Source of the DNA: an uncultured Alphaproteobacteria bacterium
GTDB lineage: Bacteria > Pseudomonadota > Alphaproteobacteria > HIMB59
NCBI GenBank assembly: GCA_902521795.1
Contig: CABYSX010000003.1
Span: 1 to 64,000, forward strand
DNA: 64,000 bases
Reading direction: 5' to 3'
Below, piece after piece: positions 50,102 to 54,277 of the stretch. Position 1 is the first letter of the stretch. Each line of letters opens with the position of its first letter. A program made the translations under genes and the position numbers. The notes under the pieces were generated by a model. That model was given only the letters and a program-made list of their open reading frames with translations, did not search any database and was not told the origin of the DNA.

Positions 50102-50138
50102 CTTCATATTTCTATCTAATACTGTTATAAGATAATTT

Positions 50139-50230
50139 GAGAATTACATGGGCAATTTTTTATGCCAATCCGGTCAGGTTCGAAAGAAAGCAGCCGTAAC
50201 ATAAGGGGTTGGGTCGTGTAATTCTCTTTT
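50139..50230 (+). ncRNA. ffs: small bacterial SRP RNA
   Basis: GAGAATTACA (50139-50148)/TGTAATTCTC (50217-50226) closing stem; CCGGTCAGGTTCGAAAGAAAGCAGCC conserved domain; T-run; upstream of dnaX. Confidence 0.93.
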
Positions 50231-50239
50231 GAACCTGTA

Positions 50240-51844
50240 ATGAAACATCAATCAAATATCCTTGCATTAAAATATAGACCTTCAAATTTTCAAGACCTTA
50301 TTGGCCAAGAGTATTTGGTTGAGACCATACAAAAGTCTATAGAGCAGAATAAGATACCAAATGCTTACATTTTTACTGGTATCCGAGGTGTGGGCAAAAC
50401 CACAACTGCAAGAATAGTAGCAAAAATGTTGAACTGCACTGTGTTTGATAAAAATAATAATCCTGATTTAACTAATTGCGAACAAGCTAAAGCTATTACT
50501 GAAGACAGACATCCAGATGTAATAGAGATTGATGCTGCTTCAAACACAAGTGTTGAAAATGCCAGAGAGATTATTGAAAACGTAAAATATAATCCTGTAT
50601 TAGGAAAATATAAAGTTTACATAGTTGATGAAGTACACATGCTATCTAAAAGTGCATTTAATGCCCTCCTCAAAACACTTGAAGAACCTCCCCCTCATTC
50701 AAAATTTATATTTGCAACTACTGAGATATCTAAAGTACCAATTACAATTCTATCGAGGTGTCAAAGATTTGATTTACGACGTGTTGATAAGAAGACGTTA
50801 TACAATTTTCTTATAAATATTTCTAAAAAGGAAGACATTTCGATCTCCAACGATGCATTAAATATGATTGTTAAAGCTAGCGATGGTTCCGTAAGAGACT
50901 CATTAAGCATATTAGATCAAGCAAATATTTTTAAATCAAAAAAAGAGATACAAGTCGAAGAAATAGTTAATATGTTAGGTTTTGCAAAGCAAAGTGATTT
51001 ATATGAGTTAACAAAATTTGTTCTTGATAATAATCTTTCTAAATTAATATCAATGCTCGATGAAATGTATCAAAGAGGCTCGGAGACAACTAAAGTTATC
51101 GAAGACTTAATGAATATAATAAACTGGTCATGTAAATTAAAAATTAATAACGAGCTCTTAAAAGATGAGTTTTTAACTGAAGAAGACAAGAATTTCGCTT
51201 CGTATGTTCTTCAATTTGATCAAGGCAAATTAAATATTTTTTGGCAAAGTTTAATGAAAGGATACGATGAAATTAAAATTTCTCCTCAACCTCACTCTAC
51301 ATTAGAAATGATACTTCTCAGGTGTGCATTTTTGTTAAATGATAACCAACGATCAGACTCAGAAGAAAAAAAAAAGTCTGAAATAAATCAACATACAAAT
51401 CAAACTTCACCTAATCTTGATCGTGTAATTCAAAATAAAGTTAATCAAGTATCCGATTTATCCCTAAAAGATAAAATAGATCTGCACCAACATTTTTTTC
51501 AATTTTATGGGAAAAACTTCTCTCCATTAATGGCTGGAATTATAATAGAAAATTGTGAGATAACTGAATTTTCTGAAGAAAATAAAATATTAAAAATAAA
51601 TGTTATTGATGAAAACTTTAATGGAAGTGAAGAGTTGTACAGAAATTTGAAAACTGAATACACACTTGAAGTGATTGTAAAAAAAGAAATTGTAACTCTA
51701 GAAGAAATAAAGTCTTTTTACAAAAAAGAGCTAATTGATCAAGAGATGGAAACGGAGGAATTTAAAAAAGTTCTTGCTAAATTTCCTAATGCAAAGATTA
51801 TAGACATAGAAGAAATAGAAAGAGGTGATGACAATGATGGGTAA
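50240..51844 (+). CDS. dnaX: DNA polymerase III subunits tau/gamma
   Basis: LALKYRPSNFQDLIGQ, GIRGVGKTTTARI, IDEVHMLSKSAFNALLKTLEEPP. Confidence 0.97.
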   Translation: MKHQSNILALKYRPSNFQDLIGQEYLVETIQKSIEQNKIPNAYIFTGIRGVGKTTTARIVAKMLNCTVFDKNNNPDLTNCEQAKAITEDRHPDVIEIDAASNTSVENAREIIENVKYNPVLGKYKVYIVDEVHMLSKSAFNALLKTLEEPPPHSKFIFATTEISKVPITILSRCQRFDLRRVDKKTLYNFLINISKKEDISISNDALNMIVKASDGSVRDSLSILDQANIFKSKKEIQVEEIVNMLGFAKQSDLYELTKFVLDNNLSKLISMLDEMYQRGSETTKVIEDLMNIINWSCKLKINNELLKDEFLTEEDKNFASYVLQFDQGKLNIFWQSLMKGYDEIKISPQPHSTLEMILLRCAFLLNDNQRSDSEEKKKSEINQHTNQTSPNLDRVIQNKVNQVSDLSLKDKIDLHQHFFQFYGKNFSPLMAGIIIENCEITEFSEENKILKINVIDENFNGSEELYRNLKTEYTLEVIVKKEIVTLEEIKSFYKKELIDQEMETEEFKKVLAKFPNAKIIDIEEIERGDDNDG

Positions 51845-53347: not shown

Positions 53348-54277
53348 ATGAAAAAACAACGCATTGTTTATTTTGGCTCACCAGAATTTTCCCTTCCTCC
53401 TTTAAAGACACTTTACCTTGGCGGTTATGAAATAGTTGGAATTTACACTCAAGAACCAAAAAAAAAATTTAGAGGACAAAAAAAATATAATACTCCAGTA
53501 CAACAATGGGCAGAGAGTCAACTTCTTCCCGTTTTTACCCCCGAAAAACTCGATGATACATCTTTAAAAGATTTTAAATCGTTAAAGCCGGACGCTGCAA
53601 TACTTTTTGCTTATGGAAAAATAGTTCCATTAAATTGGCTAAATACACCTTTACATGGCTTTATTAATATACATGCCTCACTCCTTCCAAAGTGGAGAGG
53701 GGCAGCGCCTGTTCAAAGGGCTATTGAAAACAATGATAAAAAAACAGGTATTAGTATTATGAAAATGAATGATCGAATAGATGAAGGCCCAATATTAGCC
53801 CAGCAGGACATTGAAATAAAGAATACTACTGATGGAAAGCAATTAATTGATCAAATAAGTTATGAGTCTTGCTCGTTATTATTTAACACACTAAAAAAAT
53901 ACTTCCTCGGTCAAGTGTCATTAAAAGAGCAAGATCATTCACTATCTACATACGCAAAAAAAATAAATAAAACTGAAACACAAGTAGATTGGGGATTATC
54001 AGCAAATATAATCGAAAAAAAAATAAGAGCTTTTTACCCATCACCAGCAATGTGGTTTAAACATAAAGGTCACAGATACAAAATTTTGAAAGCTAAAATT
54101 TCAAATAAACAGGACATAGAGGGAAAAATAATTAATTTACCTCTTACCGTAGCATGCAGTGAGCAAAGTTTAGATATTTTAGAAATTCAAGCCGAAGGAA
54201 AGAAGCCATTAAATATTAAAGAATTTGCTTTAGGCAATAATCAATTTCAATTAAATGAAAGAATTAATAATGGCTAA
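53348..54277 (+). CDS. fmt: methionyl-tRNA formyltransferase
   Basis: VYFGSPEFSLPPLKTL, NIHASLLPKWRGAAPVQRAI. Confidence 0.97.
   Translation: MKKQRIVYFGSPEFSLPPLKTLYLGGYEIVGIYTQEPKKKFRGQKKYNTPVQQWAESQLLPVFTPEKLDDTSLKDFKSLKPDAAILFAYGKIVPLNWLNTPLHGFINIHASLLPKWRGAAPVQRAIENNDKKTGISIMKMNDRIDEGPILAQQDIEIKNTTDGKQLIDQISYESCSLLFNTLKKYFLGQVSLKEQDHSLSTYAKKINKTETQVDWGLSANIIEKKIRAFYPSPAMWFKHKGHRYKILKAKISNKQDIEGKIINLPLTVACSEQSLDILEIQAEGKKPLNIKEFALGNNQFQLNERINNG

Follow-up and report, generated by a model that had tools for sequence, protein, structure and literature searches.

A conserved adenine run in dnaX of a marine alphaproteobacterial genus and its probable role in recoding a short clamp-loader subunit

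The role of the gamma subunit of the clamp loader, and the way in which cells make it, form a long-standing question in replication biology. The dnaX gene described here raises that question for a marine alphaproteobacterial lineage: the frame that encodes the long subunit, tau, runs through ten consecutive adenines directly behind the clamp-loader core, with a stop codon one codon away in the -1 frame. Is this arrangement an accident of base composition, or a site at which one gene is recoded to give two proteins, and if the latter, is it RNA polymerase or the ribosome that slips? The gene lies in a window of 64,000 nucleotides (the whole stretch of DNA that was analysed) from an alphaproteobacterial genome of 1.2 Mb and 31% GC, and the named relatives, 77–86% identical in DnaX, come from the AG- series of marine single-cell genomes. 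Comparison with relatives suggests that two clamp-loader proteins, one long and one short, very probably arise from this gene through a slip of one or the other machine.

The dnaX gene and the layout of the tract

A family search assigns the product to DnaX (TIGR02397 dnaX_nterm, 419 bits) and places gamma domain III (PF12169) at residues 238–367. With the end of this domain near residues 362–367 and the tract at codons 376–379, the site lies directly behind the clamp-loader core, right after domain III as an earlier sequence-only reading of the locus had placed it. The A10 run, the in-frame A_AAA_AAG heptamer and the immediate -1 stop which that reading reported are all present at its site (Table 1). 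From position 51362 the zero frame reads GAA GAA AAA AAA AAG TCT GAA ATA AAT, and a -1 shift would add a single valine to 379 residues, giving a predicted gamma that ends in EKKKV and has the length of about 380 residues that had been estimated. The 373-residue gamma chain of Escherichia coli (1jr3_A) aligns over the same core, and the C-terminal 133 residues of tau have no relative among solved structures. The sequence features of dnaX genes with a recoded gamma are found here: domains I–III before the site, a tau tail after it, a shift-prone tract and a near stop.

Table 1. Positions of the dnaX features in the window
Feature	Positions	Strand	Basis
dnaX, clamp-loader subunit tau in zero frame, 534 aa	50240–51844	+	ORF and TIGR02397; PDB relatives are E. 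coli gamma/tau
Clamp-loader core, domains I–III, aa 6–362, retained in the predicted short product	50255–51325	+	alignment to gamma/tau chains of E. coli, among them 1jr3_A
A10 tract, proposed slippage site	51366–51375	+	A10 in 42/43 same-genus genomes, A11 in 1/43
In-frame heptamer A_AAA_AAG, alternative ribosomal shift site	51370–51376	+	AAG in 42/43, AAA in L032
-1 frame GTC TGA, one sense codon then stop, predicted 380-aa gamma	51376–51381	+	GTC 51376–51378, TGA 51379–51381
+1 frame AGT CTG AAA TAA, second quick stop, TAA at 51384–51386	51375–51386	+	kept in 31/43
Linker and C-terminal region specific to tau, not part of predicted gamma	51377–51841	+	translation

Downstream of dnaX follow ybaB and recR (family search) and then def, fmt and truA (named from their translations). 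A small SRP RNA (RF00169, 55.9 bits) lies directly upstream at 50137–50231.

In the mechanism proposed here, the A10 tract would act as a programmed recoding site through which one dnaX gene gives rise to two proteins. Messages whose count of A's matches the template, or exceeds it by a multiple of three, would be translated into the 534-aa tau. One extra A from a slip of RNA polymerase (A11) would make ribosomes read GAA AAA AAA AAA GTC TGA and stop, and the product would be a 380-aa gamma with domains I–III and without the tau-specific tail. A slip of the ribosome at the heptamer predicts the identical protein, EKKKV-stop. We infer from sequence that slippage occurs, as we do its rate and the use of gamma in the clamp loader.

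Conservation of the tract and of the -1 stop

Within a single genome, such a site is of a kind that chance supplies. The genome-wide background was taken from samples of 464 kb of the window genome and 400 kb of G030, a closed genome of 1,410,127 bp from the same genus. The window-genome sample holds 25 A10 runs in ORFs against 27.2 expected from codon shuffling, as well as 72 in-frame A_AAA_AAG heptamers, and a -1 stop falls within two codons of about 20–23% of codon positions. Runs of at least 11 A's are depleted in both samples (in the window genome, 4 observed in ORFs against 14.7 expected), while A10 is depleted in ORFs of G030 (9 against 19.8 expected from codon shuffling) but not in the window genome. 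The window itself holds another A10, in fmt (CCA AAA AAA AAA at 53458–53467). As the window genome does not avoid A10, and fmt and other genes carry it, slippage, if it happens at all A10 runs, cannot do great harm. The dnaX site is unremarkable in one genome alone and does not go beyond chance; the evidence is its conservation.

The comparison set consists of 43 same-genus dnaX genes that cover the site, at 65–100% amino acid identity, with 42 as rows of the alignment and one (L013), which has an in-frame TAA upstream, read separately. All 43 carry the tract, as GAA AAA AAA AAG in 42 and as GAA AAA AAA AAA (A11) in L032, and in every one of them exactly one codon precedes the stop in the -1 frame. 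This stop is TGA in 40 genes and persists as TAA in L027, L031 and L032, where the tract is followed by altered codons (TCT AAA, CTT AAA and TCT AAA, respectively); it has thus been preserved across different codons (TCT, CCT and CTT; GAA and AAA). The sequence-only reading had named loss of the tract in close relatives as grounds for giving up its proposal of a recoded gamma subunit, and this full retention of tract and stop speaks in favor of the proposal instead. The same reading treated the two shifted frames as equivalent truncations. Both stops are indeed present in the window, but the +1 stop after three codons is kept in only 31 of the 43 genes and comes later in the remaining genomes, which rules out the +1 frame as the selected frame in this genus. 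With the quick +1 stop not conserved, the -1 frame, reached by a ribosomal -1 shift or by one extra A in the mRNA, appears to be the one under selection.

Two dnaX genes carry irregularities of another kind, the TAA of L013 and a frame broken near residue 125 in G062 (G062:C2:115642), both of which are possibly assembly errors.

The constraint is visible at the level of nucleotides. Synonymous diversity over codons 375–381 is 0.025 of expectation, the lowest of any window of dnaX, against 0.74 for the whole gene, and a tree-neighbour test over codons 376–381 counts 2 synonymous changes where 31.6 are expected (nominal p ~2e-6, for one of several hundred windows). Lysine is encoded by AAG in 18% of cases in these dnaX genes but in 38 of 39 at codon 379. 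The A10 in fmt serves as a control: close relatives share it, but among 12 divergent genomes, all of which retain the dnaX tract, 6 have an fmt run of 6 or 9. Taken together, the conservation of the tract and its -1 stop is, on this comparison of sequences, far beyond chance.

Could the conserved object be a peptide? The tract might encode only a lysine-rich linker that binds a protein or contacts DNA, and play no part in recoding. The invariance of EKKK among linker residues that are hypervariable on both sides is what such a linker would give, and a constraint on Glu-Lys-Lys-Lys may act on the amino acids. It would leave unexplained why these codons are frozen at their synonymous sites too, with the rarer AAG kept for the third lysine, and it predicts nothing of a -1 stop built from different codons in 43 of 43 genes. 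Only three codon boundaries (309, 380 and 513) have a -1 stop in every sequence, and those at 309 and 513 involve near-invariant residues, unlike 380. A linker peptide without recoding is therefore a very improbable account of the tract. Less probable still is that any short DnaX arises by proteolysis of tau, with the A tract incidental. Caulobacter crescentus, also an alphaproteobacterium, makes its gamma in this way, through ClpXP (PMC5422525), but proteolysis leaves the nucleotide-level conservation of both tract and stop without a reason. We are thus highly confident, on comparative sequence grounds, that the A10 tract is a recoding site of some kind that would yield the 380-aa gamma.

A second block of suppressed synonymous change occurs in dnaX at 51761–51802 (codons 508–521, FKKVLAKFPNAKII), just before the start of ybaB, with 21 synonymous changes against 81 expected over codons 511–521. 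The gene may hold a signal for ybaB-recR here, or codon constraint may be strong; no promoter-like site is listed within the block.

Slippage by RNA polymerase or by the ribosome

The sequence-only reading considered transcriptional slippage at least as likely as a ribosomal shift, and the comparative data place it first: recoding at this site probably proceeds mainly by slippage of RNA polymerase. The tract is a homopolymeric run of at least nine A's, as in Thermus-type sites, with a length of 10–11 in all 43 genes, and in the window nearby stops lie in both shifted frames, after one codon in -1 and after three in +1. Within the hypervariable linker, invariance reaches beyond the heptamer to codon E376 and the first two A's of K377, so it is the length of the run that seems to be conserved. 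In E. coli reporters, A9 and A11 runs give 40% and 63% shifting (PMC3711429). Insertions outnumber deletions at A7–A11 (PMC6260861), and an inserted A gives the -1 frame. The one gene with A11, L032, reads A_AAA_AAA, which is less shifty than A_AAA_AAG (PMC5009743); its tract would therefore be good for polymerase slippage and poor as a ribosomal heptamer.

The competing route is the one known from E. coli dnaX, a -1 shift of the ribosome at A_AAA_AAG, in which the sole tRNA-Lys(UUU) would pair weakly with AAG and both tRNAs would slip one base back to meet the TGA one codon on. This would directly predict AAG, which is kept at the site in 42 of 43 genes although AAA is 4–5 times commoner for lysine. 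Transcriptional slippage can explain the AAG only as fixing the length of the run at ten. The ribosomal route also suits the preservation of a single stop direction (-1) in the genus, which counts against transcription, and the closed relative G030 indeed has a single tRNA-Lys gene, with anticodon UUU. Further, across the gene samples of the window genome and G030, the dnaX tract is the only run of at least ten A's in A_AAA_AAG phase. Other genes carry A10 as well, and long runs are avoided only from A11 in the window genome or from A10 in G030, which is likewise a point against transcription.

What the ribosomal route lacks is a conserved stimulator. The sequence-only reading saw no clear stimulatory Shine-Dalgarno sequence or strong hairpin, and the genus bears this out: no upstream Shine-Dalgarno element is conserved, with even GGAG in only 1 of 42 sequences, and for a downstream stem-loop the mean fold z is -0.1 to -0.3 and RNAalifold gives no pair in the genus sequences. 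In E. coli, heptamers without a stimulator shift only 2–10 times a 0.055% background (PMC4066793). The frozen Glu376 and Lys377 lie outside the heptamer, and the A run persists in other alphaproteobacterial lineages in which AAC or AAT replaces AAG. A mainly ribosomal mechanism is for these reasons considered unlikely, though well ahead of the linker peptide and of proteolysis. What remains of our estimate within recoding goes to a mixture of the two routes.

Comparable tracts and known dnaX systems

Slippage of RNA polymerase at dnaX has a precedent in Thermus thermophilus, where transcriptional slippage at A9 produces gamma from shifted mRNAs (PMC1088944, PMC5009743). As in the window, the Thermus gene is a single tau ORF with a run of at least nine A's after the core and near stops in the shifted frames (PMC1088944, PMC5009743), and its shorter gamma lacks the tau tail, like the product predicted here. 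The run in the window differs in being A10 rather than A9 and in ending in AAG, which makes it a ribosomal heptamer as well; moreover, only the -1 stop is conserved in the window genus, and slippage there is predicted from sequence. The E. coli gene shares the in-frame heptamer, the one codon before the stop in the -1 frame and a sole tRNA-Lys(UUU) (seen for the window genus in G030), whereas the window has neither a conserved Shine-Dalgarno element nor a stem-loop, a run of ten A's rather than six, and its shift site right after domain III. The two-ORF dnaX genes found by GeneTack, a set with nine A10 species, in which gamma is encoded in frame 0 and tau arises by -1 recoding (Antonov 2013, PMC3711429), have the same kind of A10 tract, but the window gene is a single ORF, open for 534 aa, with gamma and not tau as the recoded product. 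In Caulobacter, the same protein of the same class of bacteria reaches the same outcome of a short and a long DnaX, by proteolysis instead and with no slippery tract described.

The sister family f2 (40% identity) and the Pelagibacteraceae have no comparable tract at the homologous place. A relaxed pattern applied across 385 alphaproteobacterial genomes, a non-exhaustive search in which conservation within families is judged on these few genomes, found dnaX tracts in 17, with 4 from the window genus and 13 from six further families (f23, f39, f48, f51, f70 and f91), and all other matches were not dnaX. An earlier, stricter pattern that required Leu before Arg had found dnaX tracts in the window genus only, its other matches again not being dnaX. 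In f48 (4 of 4 sampled) and f51 the tract is GTA AAA AAA AAC with an immediate -1 stop, while in f91, f23 and f39 the quick stop lies in the +1 frame; across all six families the tracts (L351–L365) are of A9–A10 and lie behind dnaX domain III, with -1 or +1 by family. In Bartonella, an A_AAA_AAG followed by a quick stop was considered as an E. coli-type site and set aside, as it is not conserved within its own group and is probably due to chance.

Two further clades illustrate the range of layouts. In the Marinicaulis clade (L306–L316; GC 56–69%), 11 of 11 genomes keep an A9 tract, [CT]TA AAA AAA AA(T/C/G), and in all 11 the frame entered through one inserted A ends no more than one codon past the lysines, at a stop built from different codons; the tract includes a TTA or CTA leucine codon, which is rare in these GC-rich dnaX genes. 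The L213 clade (L213, 1501–2643, and nine relatives, L287–L295; GC 43–50%, 73–98% identity) has nine or ten A's ending in AAG, a zero-frame stop within one codon of the tract (within three in L291) with EKKKS* in most, and a tau C-terminal region that continues in the -1 frame, much of it missing in L295. As read from these sequences, the layout is inverted, with the stop in frame 0 and tau in frame -1, which matches the GeneTack two-ORF arrangement exactly, with the same GAAAAAAAAAAGTCT. Mixed shift direction is a criterion for transcriptional slippage (PMC3711429). Since most of the other alphaproteobacterial tract lineages lack AAG and their directions differ, slippage of the polymerase is the better fit for them and, by extension, for the window genus.

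The openly available literature yielded no paper linking dnaX with HIMB59, or with SAR11 and frameshifting; alphaproteobacterial slippage together with dnaX appeared in one paper only, in passing. The trick itself is known from Thermus and E. coli and seems not to have been reported before for this marine alphaproteobacterial group.

The recoding reading is well supported, the support being comparative throughout. Its wider interest lies in the recurrence of such sites, in both layouts, across the Alphaproteobacteria: poly-A recoding of dnaX has, on balance, probably recurred in the class, with relatives that switched between gamma by slippage and tau by slippage and that stand beside lineages trimming DnaX by ClpXP. 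For annotation pipelines there is a warning in this, in that the split dnaX of the L213 clade is probably no pseudogene. The site in this ocean group, apparently HIMB59/AEGEAN-169 (PMC10308909), along with those of the other families, provides natural replicates in which the same end product is apparently reached through slippage in either direction or with the layout inverted, and through proteolysis in Caulobacter. Such repeated evolution of gamma, if true, would argue that gamma is useful to the cells that make it.
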